This document shows positions 37,931 through 57,461 of a DNA stretch of 64,000 nt, piece after piece; the stretch's first letter is position 1; each line of letters starts with the position of its first letter. Both the position numbers and the translations under genes were made by a program. Source of the DNA: Gammaproteobacteria bacterium (lineage in GTDB: Bacteria; Pseudomonadota; Gammaproteobacteria; Pseudomonadales; Azotimanducaceae); assembly GCA_021773555.1 (NCBI GenBank), contig JAJFKA010000012.1:62001-126000 (forward strand). Reading direction: 5' to 3'. The notes beneath the pieces are model-generated. The model was not told the origin of the DNA. It made no database searches and saw only the letters and a list, made by a program, of their open reading frames with translations.

Positions 37931-38104
37931 GTTGACTCCAATGTTTGGGTTCAGCCTCCACCTACCCCATGATCCAACCAGATAACTGGCACCCGAATCA
38001 TGTGTCGGTAAGTGTGAGAATTTTTGGCCGGTGAATCAGCCCCATAAGGTTGACCACTGGCACGTCGTTTAATTTCTCCTGCCAACGTTGCTGACAGGCC
38101 GCGC
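37931..38104 (-). promoter_or_regulatory. rpsB 5' leader
   Basis: About 165 bases separate the predicted transcription start near 38097 from the rpsB ATG. Long S2 leaders in gammaproteobacteria carry a site through which S2 represses its own synthesis; the length fits, but I cannot fold it confidently by eye. The rest of the rpsB-map gap (38134-38261) shows only a 5-bp hairpin CCACC/GGTGG near 38175. Confidence 0.4.
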
Positions 38105-47429: not shown

Positions 47430-49370
47430 ATGATGTTGTTTACTTACCCGCTCTCAAAGGCACTTATCAAGATGCAAACCTGCAAAGCAAAGGCTTACGT
47501 TCGCCTGATCCTTCTGGTCGTATTGCTTGGTTCCACTTCGTCCTCGCTGCTCGCACAGGACAATTGGAAAATTAACATGAAGAACGCCGACATTCGCGAG
47601 TTCATCTCCCAGGTATCGACGATCACGGGGCGAAGTTTTGTGGTTGACCCGCGAGTAAAAGGTAATGTCACCGTTGTGTCCAATACTCCCATGGATGCCG
47701 ACGCGGTTTACGAACTTTTTTTAAGCGTCCTCAGAGTGCACAGTTTTGCCGCGGTGCCTTCCGGAAATGTCACCAAGATTGTGCAGCAGGTACTCGCCAA
47801 ACAAAGCAGCAATCCCAACGACTTCAACGTCAATCCAGATTCTGAAGAGTTGATAACGCATGTCATCTCTATACGAAACGCAGCTTCAACAGAGATGGTT
47901 AAGATTCTGCGTCCGCTTATTCCCCAATACGGACATGTCGCCGGACTGGACAATCCCAACGTTCTGATCATCAGTGATCACGCTTCAAACATTGATCGAC
48001 TGGTCAGCATTATCAAGCGGGTTGATGTGGCCGATGATCTGGAAATTGCCATCGTTAATCTTGAAGAATCCTGGGTTGAAGACATGGTGGCACTCCTCGA
48101 AGAACTCGCCCCCGACCAGATTGGTAAAGGCTCGAAGGGTCCGAACAAAATTACCATCGTTGCCAGTGAAAGAACCAATTCTCTGGTACTGAAAGGCGAA
48201 AAAGATACCATAAAGAGAGTGCAGGACCTGATCAAACAATTGGATGTGCCTGCCAACCGAACCGGCGGAATCCAGATTGTCCGCCTTGCTCACTCCGATG
48301 CAAAACTAATGGCAGATATCCTGAATAATCTGGTCGCGGACAAGGGCACTAAAGACAAACCCGGCTTGAATGTCGATATCAGCATCCAGGCGGATGAAGC
48401 ACTGAATGCTCTGGTCATTCGAGCAGACCCATCAACCATGATGGACCTGAAAGATATCATCGCAGGGCTGGACGTAAGACGTCTGCAGGTGCTGATTGAG
48501 GCTGCTATTGTGGAAGTCACGACCGACTTCAGTCGTCAGCTTGGATCTGAACTGTTCGTCGGTGATGCCGCCAGCGGCACCACACCTGTCGGGTTTACAG
48601 CACCCTCGGGGACGCTTGCACAACTGCTGCAAAACCTCGCACTGGCAACTCCCGGACCTATTTCACTGGGTGAAGCCCCGCTGGTGGGTGGTGGCAGATT
48701 CAGCAACACAGGCACCAGCTTCGCGTTCATCATCAGTGCACTGGCATCCAACAGTAACGTCAATCTGCTGTCCACACCCAGCATTACGACGATGGATAAT
48801 GAAGAGGCCAAGATCGTCGTCGGTCAGAATGTCCCCTTCCGAACGGGCTCCACCGTAAGCGGAAGTCAGGGCGCCAACAACCCCTTCACCACAATTCAGC
48901 GCGAAGATGTGGGTCTTACCCTGGAAGTAACCCCGCATATCAATGAGGGCAATCTGGTACGACTGAAGATTCATCAGGAAGTATCAGAAGTAGACACCTC
49001 AAGTCTCGCAGCAATCGGTACCGAGGCAGCAGCGGACCTCATCACCAACAAACGCACGATTGATACCACGATTCTGGTTGATGACCAGGAGGTTATCATT
49101 CTCGGCGGTCTGATCCGGGACAAGGAAACCCGAGGCGTATCGAAGGTGCCTATCCTTGGCAGCATCCCTGGTTTGGGATTCCTGTTCCGGAGCGAAACCA
49201 AGTCACATGAAAAACAGAATCTGTTGGTGTTCCTGCGCCCCACCGTGCTGACCAGTAAGACAGACATCTCGACCCAGACCAAACGAAAATACCGCAATGT
49301 GTTCGAAGTTGAGATAGAAGGTACCGATCCCACGGATGAGTTGCGTGAATTATTCAATGGAAATCATTGA
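47430..49370 (+). CDS. gspD: Type II secretion secretin GspD
   Basis: Secretin of 646 residues. Signal peptide (about 1-42), N0 domain (NWKINMKNADIREFISQVS), then N1-N3 domains, and the secretin core with VPFRTGSTVSGSQG and EVIILGGLIRDKE. It forms the outer membrane channel for folded exoproteins. The start has ATGATG with a second in-frame Met at 47433. Overlaps plsB at the 3' end. Confidence 0.95.
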   Translation: MMLFTYPLSKALIKMQTCKAKAYVRLILLVVLLGSTSSSLLAQDNWKINMKNADIREFISQVSTITGRSFVVDPRVKGNVTVVSNTPMDADAVYELFLSVLRVHSFAAVPSGNVTKIVQQVLAKQSSNPNDFNVNPDSEELITHVISIRNAASTEMVKILRPLIPQYGHVAGLDNPNVLIISDHASNIDRLVSIIKRVDVADDLEIAIVNLEESWVEDMVALLEELAPDQIGKGSKGPNKITIVASERTNSLVLKGEKDTIKRVQDLIKQLDVPANRTGGIQIVRLAHSDAKLMADILNNLVADKGTKDKPGLNVDISIQADEALNALVIRADPSTMMDLKDIIAGLDVRRLQVLIEAAIVEVTTDFSRQLGSELFVGDAASGTTPVGFTAPSGTLAQLLQNLALATPGPISLGEAPLVGGGRFSNTGTSFAFIISALASNSNVNLLSTPSITTMDNEEAKIVVGQNVPFRTGSTVSGSQGANNPFTTIQREDVGLTLEVTPHINEGNLVRLKIHQEVSEVDTSSLAAIGTEAAADLITNKRTIDTTILVDDQEVIILGGLIRDKETRGVSKVPILGSIPGLGFLFRSETKSHEKQNLLVFLRPTVLTSKTDISTQTKRKYRNVFEVEIEGTDPTDELRELFNGNH

Positions 49371-51783
49371 ACCCGTTCGACGTTTCCAGTTCCATGTCTC
49401 GCGTCGATTGCTGTTCAGTTGGATCAAACCAACCATTCTTGGTTGCAGCACATCTGAACTGGGGCTGACAACAGACGACCTGATTTGTTATGTACTGCCG
49501 TTTCGTTCAATCGCCGACATGATGGTGACTGACAAGGCCTGTGAGGATGCGGGACTGCCGAGGCCCACCGAGCCAATTGAAACGCTCAATGAAAGACGCG
49601 CGGTATTTTTCCTCGGCCATCCGGAAGGTCGTTTTGGCAGGAAGACCCTGCGCCAGCAGTCGACGCGGATGTCGCGTCTGTTTGACCATGTGGTACCCGA
49701 TGGGAAAACAATCAAGATAGTTCCGGTTTCCGTATTCTGGGGGCACCAGCCTGATCAGGAGAAATCGCTGTTCAAACTGCTGCTGTCGGAAAACTGGACG
49801 GTCACCAGTCGATTCAAAAAATTACTGAGTGTTGTATTTCACCCGAACCATATTCTCATTCAGTTTGGCGAACCATTAATGCTTTCGTCGATAACCGAGT
49901 CAGAACTCGATCGCCAAAAACACCGGCGGAAGCTTCTGCGTATCCTAAGGGTGCACTTCAACAGTCAGAAGCAAGCGATTATCGGACCGGACTTATCCCA
50001 CCGTCGAACCCTGATTAACAATGTTATCGAAAGCGAAGATGTGCGCACGGCAATCACAAAAGAAGTGTCAAAAACGAAAGCTCCGCTGCACAAGGTGGAA
50101 GCCAAAGCATTAAAGCACGCCAGGGAAATCGCATCACACCAGTCCTATCGGGTTATCCGGTTCTTCCATGTACTACTCACCTGGTTGTGGAACAACCTGT
50201 ACGATGGCATCCAGGTTAATAACATCGACCGGGTGAAGCGCCTCGCCCAGTCACATGAAATTGTCTACACGCCCTGTCATCGCAGCCACATCGATTATCT
50301 GCTGTTATCTTTTGTGTTGTACCAGAATGGCCTGACGCCGCCGCATATTGCTGCCGGTAAAAACCTGAACCTGCCGGTTATAGGTTCACTGCTCCGCCGA
50401 GCAGGTGCTTTCTATATGCGTCGCTCATTCAAGGGCGATAACTTATACAAGGCGGTGTTCGATGAATATCTGCATCAGATGTTTACCAAAGGCTACTCGG
50501 TAGAATATTTCATTGAAGGTGGCAGGAGTCGAACCGGCAGGACACTGGTTCCGCGCACGGGCATGCTGAGTATGACGCTGCGCAGTTTTCAAAAAGACTC
50601 CTCCAGACCCATCTGTTTGATGCCGGTCTATTTCGGCTATGAGCGGGTGCTTGAATCGACTACCTACCTGGGTGAGCTTTCCGGAAAGAACAAGAAAACC
50701 GAATCCATTTTTGATCTGTTCAAGATATTCAGGTCGTTCAAGTATTCCTTCGGTGAGGTCACCGTAAACTTCGGGCAGCCACTGCTGCTGGCAGAATTCC
50801 TGGATGAAGAATTGCCAGAGTGGCAAACCCAATCGAACACTGCCGATTTTTCTCGAGCCTGTGTCAGGTTGGCGAATGAATTAGCAACTCGCATCAACAG
50901 CGCCGCAGCAATCAATGTGGTCGGTCTTGTGGCGACTGCAGTCCTCAGCACCCCACGACATACCATCGAGGAAACACACCTGATCAGCCAGCTTGAGGTA
51001 TTACGTCAACTGGCCAGGGACGCCGATGAGGATCACTCTGTGACCAGTCTGACTGCCGCGGAGATTCTGGCAATGGCGATTACGATCACCGGCCTGAAGC
51101 GCACAGAGCACGCATTCGGCGTAACCATCAGCGCATCGTCCGACCTGGCAATTCTACTTACCTATTACGGTAATAACATACTGCACATGTTCGCCCTGCC
51201 TTCACTGGTCGCAAGATTCGTGAAATCCAAACAGTCCTGTACCCAGGAACAAGTGGAGGAATATGTCGCGAAGCTTTACCCGTTCCTGAAGGCCGAATTT
51301 TTCCTGCGCAAATTCGATGAACAACAAGTCGCCCGAATTATCGAATCCTTCGCACGGCTTGGTCTCATCACCGTGAATAACGGCACGATCACAACGGCCC
51401 CTACCGCGAGTGATTACTACGCGTCTCTCCAGGAACTGGGTGAAATCATCGAACCCACACTGGAGCGATTCCAGATCGTTGCCGCCTTGCTGATGGCTGA
51501 CGAACCAAGAACGATCCGTGAACTCGAAGTCGTTGCAGCAGCCGTAGCCGAGCAACTATCTGCAATCTACGGTATTAACTCCCCGGAGTTTTTCGAACGC
51601 TCGCTTTTTGCAACTTTCATCGGCAGCCTGAAATCCCGACAGCTCATCTCAACCGAGGGCAGCATCGTCCGGAGAGAAGAGGGCTTTCTGGATTTGATAG
51701 AGCTCACTTCCTCGACGCTTGACGCAGACGTGCAGTACAACATCCTCCAGGCTGTTTCACCGCGGACTACGGCTTTGCCGTAG
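49357..51783 (+). CDS. plsB: Glycerol-3-phosphate 1-O-acyltransferase
   Basis: PlsB of about 808 residues. The acyltransferase block I is CHRSHIDYLLLSF (HX4D, near residue 308), block II region HIAAGKNLNLP, block III YFIEGGRSRTGR, and block IV LMPVYFGYE. It starts phospholipid synthesis in the inner membrane. An upstream ATG at 49336 would add 7 residues. The start overlaps gspD by 14 bases. The last residues (TTALP) and the stop codon come from the first palindrome of the repeat array, so the native 3' end has been altered. Confidence 0.95.
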   Translation: MEIIEPVRRFQFHVSRRLLFSWIKPTILGCSTSELGLTTDDLICYVLPFRSIADMMVTDKACEDAGLPRPTEPIETLNERRAVFFLGHPEGRFGRKTLRQQSTRMSRLFDHVVPDGKTIKIVPVSVFWGHQPDQEKSLFKLLLSENWTVTSRFKKLLSVVFHPNHILIQFGEPLMLSSITESELDRQKHRRKLLRILRVHFNSQKQAIIGPDLSHRRTLINNVIESEDVRTAITKEVSKTKAPLHKVEAKALKHAREIASHQSYRVIRFFHVLLTWLWNNLYDGIQVNNIDRVKRLAQSHEIVYTPCHRSHIDYLLLSFVLYQNGLTPPHIAAGKNLNLPVIGSLLRRAGAFYMRRSFKGDNLYKAVFDEYLHQMFTKGYSVEYFIEGGRSRTGRTLVPRTGMLSMTLRSFQKDSSRPICLMPVYFGYERVLESTTYLGELSGKNKKTESIFDLFKIFRSFKYSFGEVTVNFGQPLLLAEFLDEELPEWQTQSNTADFSRACVRLANELATRINSAAAINVVGLVATAVLSTPRHTIEETHLISQLEVLRQLARDADEDHSVTSLTAAEILAMAITITGLKRTEHAFGVTISASSDLAILLTYYGNNILHMFALPSLVARFVKSKQSCTQEQVEEYVAKLYPFLKAEFFLRKFDEQQVARIIESFARLGLITVNNGTITTAPTASDYYASLQELGEIIEPTLERFQIVAALLMADEPRTIRELEVVAAAVAEQLSAIYGINSPEFFERSLFATFIGSLKSRQLISTEGSIVRREEGFLDLIELTSSTLDADVQYNILQAVSPRTTALP

Positions 51784-51784
51784 T
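51766..51784. terminator. Perfect palindrome covering the plsB stop
   Basis: ACTACGG-CTTTG-CCGTAGT is a 7-bp perfect hairpin, the first element of the repeat array. It includes the plsB TAG. It may stop or stabilise the plsB transcript; no T-run follows. Confidence 0.5.
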
Positions 51785-51970
51785 CGCCGAAAGCTGTTTA
51801 GGACAACGGCTTTGCGCAGCAAAACGTAGTCGCCGAAAGCCGTTTGCGAAGCAAACTGCGAAAGGCAAAATCTCCGAAACCTCACGATCTCTGAGCTTGA
51901 ACAAACTACGGCTTTGCAACGCCAACAGCGAAAAGCAAAAACTCCGAACTCCGAGGATCTGTAAGCTGTA

Positions 51971-52095
51971 ACCCGAAAAGCGGTAACGGGACCTGTCGTC
52001 TCCGCTGGCTCGCAACCTTCCAGGTTGCCCTCAGTCGCAATTGAGCCTGTAGTCTCAATTACTCTTTCGGTGCTTCACCTTGAAGGCTACGCCAA
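51971..52095. repeat. 125-bp long repeat unit, copy 1
   Basis: Identical to 52386-52510 except one base (A at 52077, G at 52492). It carries internal hairpins CAACCT/AGGTTG, AATTGAG/CTCAATT and GGTG-CTT-CACC. This copy is the core of the closed structure at 51975-52116. Confidence 0.9.
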
Positions 52096-52116
52096 CAGGT
52101 CCCGCCACCGCTTTTC
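51975..52116. other. Structured element closed by a 20-bp stem
   Basis: GAAAAGCGGT (51975-51984) pairs with ACCGCTTTTC (52107-52116), and CGGGACCTGT (51987-51996) pairs with ACAGGTCCCG (52095-52104). Together these are 20 base pairs around a symmetric 2x2 internal loop. Three smaller hairpins lie inside. It could be a structured RNA, a non-autonomous mobile element with long arms, or a DNA cruciform. Strand of any transcript is unknown. Confidence 0.65.
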
Positions 52117-52385
52117 TACACCACGGCTTTGCGCAGCAAAACGTGGTGGCCGATAGCTGTTTGCATCGCAAACTGCGAAAGGCAAATCTCCAAAATCCCA
52201 CGATCTCTGAGCTTGAACAAACCGCGGCTTTGCGAAGCAAAAACGAGGTCGCAGGCAGACTGTTTGCACCGCAAACTGCGAAAGGTAAGACACGGCTTTG
52301 CGCAGCAAAACGTGGTCGCCGATAGCTGTTTGCAACGCAAACTGCGAAAGGCAAAATCTCCGAACTCCCACCATCTGTGATTTGA

Positions 52386-52510
52386 ACCCGAAAAGCGGTA
52401 ACGGGACCTGTCGTCTCCGCTGGCTCGCAACCTTCCAGGTTGCCCTCAGTCGCAATTGAGCCTGTAGTCTCAATTACTCTTTCGGTGCTTCGCCTTGAAG
52501 GCTACGCCAA
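52386..52510. repeat. 125-bp long repeat unit, copy 2 (lacks 3' arm)
   Basis: Second copy, offset 415 bp from copy 1. The left arm (GAAAAGCGGT, 52390-52399, and CGGGACCTGT, 52402-52411) is present, but the matching right arm is replaced by AGAGGTAAACC and the next short unit. Its single difference turns CACC into CGCC, which still pairs with GGTG through a G-U wobble. Confidence 0.9.
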
Positions 52511-52642
52511 GAGGTAAACCACGGCTTTGCGCAGCAAAACGTGGTCGCCGAAAGCTGTTTGCGACGCAAACAGCGAAAGGCAAAAACTCCGAACTTCCAC
52601 CATCTGTGAACAAAGAGGGCTTTGCGCAACAAAACCTAGCGC

Positions 52643-53302
52643 TCAAAGACTACTCAGGTAAACATCAAACTGGCTCGATTTCCCCTTAACTGAATGGGAT
52701 GGTTTTCCGGCTGGGTAGTCATTCGTTGACGCACTTTCTAATGGACGCTTGACGACTATTCTGCGGCAACCTGTTGCCTGTGCGGCCGAGATCAGTTGCG
52801 ACACATCCTGGTCCTTGCCGATAAAGCGCTGCAAAAATTGCATTTCACCTTTTACCTGCGCCGTTTTTCTGCGGGACGGGAACATCGGGTCAATCAGTAT
52901 TGCGTCGAACTGTGGGTTACCATGGGTCAGGTAGCGTATCGAGTCATCGCGCAGCAGGGTCAGCCGACTGACGATGCCAGCCAGGTCCGGATCGTGGCTT
53001 GCACGCTCAAGCGCATCACGGAGTAACATGGCGAGTACATTTGATCTTTCCAGCATGGTTACCTGACATCCCAGTGATGCCAGCAGAACCGCATCTCGTC
53101 CAAGTCCGGCAGTACAGTCGAGCACCTTGAGATCTTTTTTCGCACCAATCGCCCTGGCAACATGCTCCGCTTTGCCCCCGCCTTTTCTGAGACGATAACT
53201 GAACCCTGCATCACCGAAGTCGATCAGCAGCGGATGTTGATGACTGAAACTATCCACCAGCCGAAGGCCGGCTAAGCTTTGTTGCAGCAGGTAACGACCC
53301 AT
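52643..53302 (-). CDS. rsmJ: 16S rRNA (guanine(1516)-N(2))-methyltransferase
   Basis: RsmJ (YhiQ) of about 219 residues, a Rossmann methyltransferase. The SAM site is VLDCTAGLGRDAVLLASLG and the catalytic-side motif is DAILIDPMFPSRRKTAQVKG, which is characteristic. The ATG at 53302 has GGAG five bases upstream and is preferred to GTG at 53308. It ends right at the repeat array. Confidence 0.93.
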   Translation of the reverse strand: MGRYLLQQSLAGLRLVDSFSHQHPLLIDFGDAGFSYRLRKGGGKAEHVARAIGAKKDLKVLDCTAGLGRDAVLLASLGCQVTMLERSNVLAMLLRDALERASHDPDLAGIVSRLTLLRDDSIRYLTHGNPQFDAILIDPMFPSRRKTAQVKGEMQFLQRFIGKDQDVSQLISAAQATGCRRIVVKRPLESASTNDYPAGKPSHSVKGKSSQFDVYLSSL

Positions 53303-53320
53303 TAACACTCCATCAGATAA

Positions 53321-56797: not shown

Positions 56798-57199
56798 CTA
56801 CTTCTTTTTTCTGGCAGCAGGCTTTTTCTTCGCAGCGGCCTTCTTCTTAGCTGCTGGCTTTTTCTTAGCAGCTTTTTTCTTGGCAGCTGGCTTTTTCTTG
56901 GCAGCTTTTTTCTTGGGCGCTGCTTTTTTCTTGGCTACCTTTTTCTTAGCAGCTTTTTTCTTGGGCGCTGCCTTTTTCTTAGCTACTTTCTTCTTAGCTA
57001 CTTTTTTCTTGGCAGCCTTTTTCTTGGGAGCTGCTTTTTTCTTTGCAGCCGCCTTTTTCTTAGCAGCTGGTCTTTTCTTGGCTGCTACTTTTTTCTTAGC
57101 AACTGCCTTCTTCTTAGCAGCTGGTTTTTTCTTAGCAACCGTCTTACGTTTTGCTACTGATTTCTTTGCAGCTTTTTTCTTTTTCGCAACCACTTTCAT
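56798..57199 (-). CDS. Histone H1-like Lys/Ala-rich protein
   Basis: About 133 residues from the ATG at 57199, which follows AGGAG; the frame to 57262 would begin at an unlikely GTG. Nearly the whole protein is Lys, Ala and Pro in irregular KKKAAKK/KKKPAAKK repeats, like the C-terminal tails of AlgP/histone H1-like bacterial proteins. It should bind DNA or RNA without sequence preference and lacks a folded N-terminal domain. The repeats make length variation between strains likely. Confidence 0.8.
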   Translation of the reverse strand: MKVVAKKKKAAKKSVAKRKTVAKKKPAAKKKAVAKKKVAAKKRPAAKKKAAAKKKAAPKKKAAKKKVAKKKVAKKKAAPKKKAAKKKVAKKKAAPKKKAAKKKPAAKKKAAKKKPAAKKKAAAKKKPAARKKK

Positions 57200-57461
57200 C
57201 GCTCCTATTTTACGTTGAAAAGTTTTAACACTTCGCCCTGCTAACTGACGTCTCCTCGGCACTTTTGTTAGTCACATATTATGACGTTCAAAAACAATCA
57301 CGCTGTCAGTTATCAACACGATGCAAAGTTTAGAAAAAAAAATTCTATTTGCACACCTTTTTTTTACGAAAAATGCAAAAATTTCAGTGTTTTACTGCCA
57401 CGACTTCGAATTTTTCTAACAATTTCGTTGTATCACCTAGATATTGCTACATAAAAAAAAT
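57200..57461. other. AT-rich gap upstream of the H1-like gene
   Basis: About 260 bases between the adk stop and the H1-like start on the same strand. It is strikingly AT-rich, with A and T runs near 57334-57363 and 57452-57460. No gene or firm promoter is seen; poly-A/T tracts suggest curved DNA. Confidence 0.4.

Follow-up and report, generated by a model that had tools for sequence, protein, structure and literature searches.

A dispersed family of REP-like double hairpins behind tRNA genes and coding sequences of Azotimanducaceae, found through an array between plsB and rsmJ

How do short palindromic repeats spread when no transposase flanks them, and what use do their hosts make of them? 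Repeats resembling the repetitive extragenic palindromic (REP) sequences are common. The insertion sequences IS200/IS605 have PATE-like derivatives, non-autonomous elements with hairpin ends that lie 3' of a short target. In published work, GTAG REPs are short stem-loops downstream of genes that often adjoin a TAG stop codon or supply it, and CGTC REPs are a superfamily reported without a dedicated transposase, with a CGTC tag and stems of 8–9 bp, mostly inverted dimers and mostly alphaproteobacterial (PMC3733652). A second paper reports that TnpA-REP cuts between C and T, that a Marinomonas enzyme also cuts between C and A, and that the E. coli REP needs a bulge in its stem (PMC8266576). Here we describe an element family that speaks to these questions, recognized through an array between the genes plsB and rsmJ in a 64-kb stretch of DNA (the window; contig JAJFKA010000012.1, positions 62,001 to 126,000) from a gammaproteobacterium of the Azotimanducaceae. 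Its unit is a pair of abutting hairpins, H1 then H2. We conclude that the family is real, dispersed and structure-conserved, that the libraries searched do not contain it and that it is closest to REPs.

The array spans approximately 51764–52640 of the window, and gene calls bear out the first-pass annotation in that it occupies the space between convergent plsB (open reading frame (ORF) 49336..51783, + strand) and rsmJ (52643..53308, − strand), identified by the Pfam families GPAT_C/Acyltransferase and SAM_MT, respectively. The five GTTTGC-N3-GCAAAC hairpins with five different loops that the annotation listed are all present, at 51842 (GAA), 52159 (ATC), 52262 (ACC), 52328 (AAC) and 52557 (GAC). 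With at most one mismatch allowed, the window contains six such hairpins, against a mean of 0.27 in shuffled windows. These palindromes belong to H2, in which a 9-bp stem with a 3-nt loop stands on a symmetric GNNA/GANA internal loop and, below it, a foot of 3 bp. H1, a hairpin type that the annotation had missed along with two 131-nt inserts, reads CCACG-GC-TTTGC-N3-GCAAA-A-CGTGG in the array: the outer stem is followed by an asymmetric internal loop (GC opposite A) and then by a TTTGC-N3-GCAAA tip. Folded as RNA, unit 5 reaches −32 kcal/mol versus −20.05 for shuffled sequence (z −4.12; reverse strand z −4.29), and five of six folded sequences (two units on both strands plus an element from the relative G003) have z values of −3.6 to −4.4. 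A unit from contig C83 of the same genome, folded alone, takes another shape and stays within the shuffle range (z −1.34; 23 of 200 shuffles as good). Because both strands fold alike, folding energy cannot pick the relevant strand. When the array was compared with Rfam, nothing scored above the gathering score, and the only matches below it were Termite-flg, sucA-II and SMCR2_1; elsewhere, matches above that score were t44 in the window and the tRNA or transfer-messenger RNA (tmRNA) genes in 15 loci. No Rfam family fits the element, in agreement with the annotation, which had recognized no named family.

Is the base pairing maintained as the sequence changes? The annotation had proposed that pairing is kept and that change is confined to the loops. 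Identical arms within the array are by themselves weak evidence of selection, because the units are near-duplicates of one another; the copies elsewhere are more telling, since their arms change by compensated pairs. Pairing is thus retained, and the loop-only pattern is not, since arms vary among copies and genomes as well as loops, albeit pairwise. In 22 equal-length H2s from eight genomes, 96.2% of cells pair and eight of 12 pairs carry two-sided changes; the set has 41 double-change cells versus 10.3 after shuffling (none of 500 shuffles as high), and its covariation score is 0.477 versus at most 0.09 in slid controls. When 136 distinct H2s are placed on the covariance model, all 12 pairs are doubly changed, with 329 cells versus 99.8 in shuffles. 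Both sets are biased toward structure, the first by hand choice and the second by model fitting, and relatedness is left in place by the shuffles and retained by the slid controls. The data support the conclusion that H2 pairing is kept while the letters change. On the element strand, G.T pairs outnumber A.C mismatches by 58 to 13, which favours that strand, although the model itself tolerates G.U. For H1, pairs were counted at a single site, the tRNA-Leu(GAG) site described below.

The spread of the element was followed with sequence searches and covariance models, which recover it in its own genome and in relatives. Exact GTTTGC-N3-GCAAAC occurs at five sites in the 5.2-Mb genome, all of them in this array, so the possibility raised by the annotation, that the unit is confined to this site, is true of the exact arms; the unit itself recurs in the genome and in the bacterial family. 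Used as a BLAST query, one unit retrieves related copies from three further contigs of the genome (C83, C93 and C137) and from two congeners; the arms of these copies differ and still pair (GTTTGC/GCAAAC becomes GCTTGC/GCAAGC). Model R1, built from nine H2s of this genome, has matches at E ≤ 0.1 in 22 of the 200 family genomes searched; with the broader model R2 and E ≤ 0.001, 39 of 206 are positive, and these represent 15 of 37 genera. R2 copy numbers of at least 33 (G020), 28 (G033) and 18 (the source genome, G000) are lower bounds, and absence elsewhere is unproven, because few candidates per genome were scored (the best 33 within the family, the best 17 order-wide) under strict filters. 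In an order-wide sample of 390 genomes at E ≤ 0.01, 12 have matches: four belong to the same family and eight to other families, the latter with a single weak match each (E 5.7e-4 to 0.0097), and the three of these that were inspected resemble chance. A pattern search of genome contigs gave seven stretches, three of them real and all behind tRNA-Leu (L209, L212, L213) and four judged by eye to be chance. A phage or plasmid origin was set aside: the phage and plasmid collections gave no match, and the sole pattern match in viral contigs lies in apparent coding sequence and, by eye, lacks H2.

Other arrays were also seen. At G061:C1:2792355-2792685 (L179), an atypical element forms a tandem array of at least seven 50-nt units, which seems to follow directly on a TAG-ended ORF. 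In the source genome, contigs C83 (at its 3' end) and C137 (at its 5' start) both break within a 61-nt tandem array of the same type; they may therefore adjoin each other, with a longer array than the assembly shows.

Where do the elements sit? Of the 194 R2 matches in the collected loci, 175 were used, and they represent 169 unique elements grouped into 122 clusters; the loci are the best-scoring ones rather than a random draw, and the placement genes are simple ORF picks. H1 could be parsed by constrained folding in 167 of the 169 elements, with some parses extending into neighbouring units. Directly behind a tRNA or tmRNA gene, in sense, stand 32 of the clusters, with H2 starting 23–52 nt past the gene and H1 in between; because some of these sites are orthologues or duplicate contigs counted repeatedly, they are not independent events. 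Another 46 lie in sense behind the 3' end of a coding sequence (CDS; 49 were so labelled, and L147, L148 and L229 were dropped as inside an ORF call). Of the remainder, 19 adjoin a CDS and two a tRNA on the opposite strand, and 20 are at other places, some with tRNA-like CCA flanks uncalled by ARAGORN (e.g., L271, L189). Thus 78 of 122 clusters have the downstream-of-gene location that characterizes GTAG REPs. The strand of a downstream CDS within 300 nt follows no clear rule (52 opposite versus 38 same).

The left edge could be read in 84 first elements whose H1 parsed cleanly. Of these, the 18 that abut tRNAs begin after CCA in 15 cases and TAG in three, and the 66 that do not abut tRNAs begin after TAG in 25, TAA in 11, CCA in six and TGA in two, with none of these triplets in 22. 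In control windows 40–400 nt upstream at the same loci, the frequencies are 3.5% for TAG, 3.5% for TAA, 6.5% for CCA and 8.1% for TGA. The triplets adjoining H1 in 106 elements (TAG 30, TAA 13, TGA 2) also differ from the stops of nearby long ORFs (TAG 82, TAA 67, TGA 105; Fisher p = 1.7e-7, a nominal value because the copies are related). Since TGA is avoided, the edge seems to be set by sequence and not by stop function, and such a left-edge preference can alone explain the sense orientation.

Comparison with relatives provides both filled and empty sites. At the home locus, 17 other genomes have an rsmJ match, and R1 found no element at any of these loci; in the seven checked further (G001, G002, G003, G005, G006, G069 and G125), where location and C-terminus served to identify plsB, the gene either overlaps rsmJ or is separated from it by 15 bp at most in every case. 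The array was therefore added in this genome. It now provides the end of plsB, which reads QAIPH-stop in G003 versus QAVSPRTTALP-stop here. At tRNA-Leu(GAG), the element stands 1–2 nt past CCA in four congeners (G001–G004), and the site is empty in the source genome; inspection by eye of the same tRNA in other genera (G017, G145, G069, G121, G134, G125, G179 and G033) revealed no element. Relatives with an empty site, as expected of a mobile element, were thus found at both places. Across the four filled sites, three outer pairs of H1 show two-sided changes with one T.G state, and 46 of 48 cells pair, the two unpaired cells both being in the G004 tip. The covariation score was reached by eight of 500 shuffles and the number of covarying pairs (three) by 174. 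These four sequences are suggestive only, of either in-place compensation or replacement by other copies. At a tRNA-Met site in five genomes, H2 has one covarying pair, not beyond shuffles.

Two further stretches behind leucine tRNAs deserve mention as observations. The tRNA-Leu(GAG) gene of G125 is followed by a longer hairpin arrangement of another design (L281), which may represent a related element type, and a degenerate stretch resembling H1 and H2 directly follows CCA behind the second tRNA-Leu of G001 (L303).

We propose, with somewhat better than even confidence, that this is a REP-like miniature element family that is moved in trans to sites next to edge motifs and whose folds are kept at some of those sites. 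The element would be a non-coding, REP-like sequence of ~65 nt that moves as a folded single DNA strand. The strand would be cut beside a TAG/TAA/CCA-type motif and joined 3' of the motif by a trans-acting enzyme, most plausibly a Y1/HUH-type nuclease such as serves REPs and IS200/IS605 elements. At a gene end, it would then be transcribed, and at some sites selection may keep the fold, perhaps as a folded 3' end. Local arrays would grow by tandem duplication and lose their middles by recombination between matching arms. Several results weigh against this proposal. No element was found by R2 at E ≤ 1 in any of 59 loci of Y1 genes (PF01797); the loci come from 31 genomes, and 53 of the 59 belong to the 25 of these that bear elements. 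The scan includes some loci ending at contig ends and, of the 11 matches in the source genome, covers the four above cut-off. The R2-positive genomes G061 and G100 (single contig) and G121 gave no PF01797 match. Of the 136 Pfam families represented in 116 neighbour proteins, the 25 most frequent include no transposase; these proteins were picked from 146 of 165 ORFs of ≤420 aa (205 ORFs before that cut). Of the non-tRNA first elements, 22 of 66 show no edge triplet; no alignable filled and empty pair delimits the right edge or a target duplication; and in-place compensated change at tRNA-Leu is not predicted by mobility alone. R1 found no element at the first 31 Y1 loci, where a hairpin scan by eye saw no paired flanking hairpins. 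The G061 copies are atypical, having lost the GANA side. HTH_32, a domain often part of transposases, is represented by two neighbour proteins. A candidate autonomous element between two copies on contig C108 was rejected: the 4.2 kb separating them read as ordinary housekeeping ORFs (by eye, one by Pfam). Y1 genes are commoner in element-bearing genomes (25 of 28 tested, out of 39, versus six of 15 element-free genomes; Fisher p 0.0011, uncorrected for clade), and a Y1 enzyme may therefore act from a distance, a possibility raised by analogy with TnpA-REP, whose cut lies beside a hairpin (PMC8266576).

How do other explanations fare against the same evidence? If the element acted mainly as host RNA, its two hairpins forming a 3' end that protects, processes or terminates the transcripts of tRNAs and mRNAs, with only incidental dispersal, then the sense placement of 78 of 122 clusters, the H1 retained with two-sided changes and a T.G state in four congeners, and the G.T excess would all follow; we consider this doubtful but give it a real chance. 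The left-edge preference could account for the orientation, the strands fold equally and the strand-choosing model tolerates G.U, while the covarying-pair count at tRNA-Leu is matched by about a third of shuffles (174 of 500) and the single covarying pair at tRNA-Met lies within them. Moreover, 167 of 206 family genomes have no match at E ≤ 0.001 among their best 33 candidates, and the source genome itself lacks the element at tRNA-Leu(GAG). Combining host use with mobility, one can imagine a new class of gene-end miniature element, in which a non-RAYT enzyme (RAYT, REP-associated tyrosine transposase) puts the double hairpin exactly behind tRNA CCA and TAG/TAA and the fold is then retained by the host as a module at the 3' end of tRNAs and mRNAs; we regard this more ambitious idea as unlikely. 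In the literature searched (titles and the openings of abstracts, mostly open-access), no tRNA-end double hairpins are described.

A classical REP or REPIN moved by a RAYT of the same genome that the repeat flanks, the partner that the annotation had pointed to, would explain palindromes at CDS 3' ends, the TAG-like edge, the arrays, the inverted neighbours at six loci (L050, L063, L073, L230, L248, L265) and the association with Y1. We judge it quite improbable, since Y1 genes are present in this genome and yet none of the 59 Y1 loci scanned bears the element, three element-bearing genomes gave no PF01797 match, exact GTAG crosses the left edge in just three of 84 first elements, and H1 and H2 are unlike hairpins in a fixed order. 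Intrinsic transcription terminators would also form hairpins behind genes and between convergent genes, and by eye a hairpin resembling a terminator occupies the tRNA-Leu(GAG) site in G179; the elements nevertheless have no T run, TTTT occurring within 20 nt past H2 in 11 of 169 (6.5%) versus a background of 6.2%, which leaves this explanation very little probability. The notion of a local minisatellite of no wider meaning drew on the confinement of the exact arms to this array within the genome, and it is refuted, with next to no chance remaining, by the recurrence of the architecture, its arms compensated, in 39 of the 206 genomes of the family. Integron attC sites were considered and provisionally set aside in view of their core sites.

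The array itself, delimited by sequence reading, repeat comparison and gene calls, can be read unit by unit along the + strand. It opens with a collapsed hairpin, GACTACGGC-TTT-GCCGTAGTC (51765..51785), that overlaps the 3' end of plsB and gives its final codons and stop. Unit 1 consists of H1 at 51802..51831, its coordinates read off the folded sequence, and H2 at 51832..51866 (loop GAA). The stretch at 51903..51938 reads as the 5' half of H1 joined to the 3' half of H2, in keeping with the middle-deleted unit that the annotation had suspected. Unit 2 folds into H1 at 52119..52148 and H2 at 52149..52183 (ATC). Unit 3 is degenerate, with H1 at 52221..52249 by constrained folding and H2 at 52251..52286 (ACC), a weak covariance-model match. 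Unit 4 has H1 at 52291..52314 by folding and H2 at 52318..52352 (AAC), and unit 5 has H1 at 52518..52545 by RNA folding and H2 at 52547..52581 (GAC), with complete pairing of its arms. A trailing partial H1 (52618..52639) closes the array. Two inserts, neither assigned a strand, interrupt it. The first (51970..52116) comprises a 131-nt repeat (51970–52100) and its own right end, with 22-nt inverted ends at 51975–51996 and 52095–52116; the second (52385..52515) is another copy of the 131-nt repeat, 98% identical, without the right inverted end. A search of the same genome gave no further good match to the repeat (next best E 0.2), which may be a second small element lodged in the array.

A second palindrome resembling CGTCGGACCG (at most one mismatch) lies inside H2 in four of 169 elements and in the 75 nt before H2 in 14 of 169 (loci L072, L180, L204, L212, L216, L225, L238, L241, L244, L248, L253, L254 and L255), frequently within a hairpin loop, as if loops draw insertions. 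Elsewhere in the window, the t44 RNA (RF00127) lies at 37949–38036 on the − strand (68.2 bits), and positions 56802–57200 contain repeats in 15- and 18-nt steps that by eye encode a lysine/alanine-rich tail, perhaps histone-H1-like.

In sum, the family combines a clear placement preference (tRNA CCA, TAG/TAA) with covariation at all 12 H2 pairs, and at one tRNA site four species of a genus carry the element, with compensated arms, and a fifth does not; its mobility and a possible RNA function are both directly testable. How does it compare with the systems described above? Like the GTAG REPs and REPINs that work with RAYTs (PMC3733652), it consists of stem-loops behind genes, adjacent to TAG and gathered in arrays. 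Like the stem of the E. coli REP, which needs a bulge (PMC8266576), its H1 stem is imperfect, with the GC/A internal loop. GTAG REPs carry a GTAG (or GYRG-type) tetranucleotide at one end; here the edge is TAG/TAA/CCA-like and rarely GTAG, the hairpins are a fixed unlike pair, placement at tRNA ends is frequent, and none of 59 Y1 loci adjoins it. REPINs are inverted dimers of one palindrome; the basic unit here is, by eye, H1 followed by an unlike H2, and inverted neighbours occur at six loci. From CGTC REPs it differs in being a head-to-tail pair of different hairpins and in having no CGTC consensus, neither in the 6 nt before H1 (106 elements) nor in the 8 nt after H2 (168 elements), and from PATE-like elements in that none of the 59 Y1 loci, IS200-like ones included, has H2-type ends. 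As far as these comparisons were run, the element lacks the tag and the transposase of a REP, and it shares with REPs the palindromic stem-loops, the position behind genes and the arrays.

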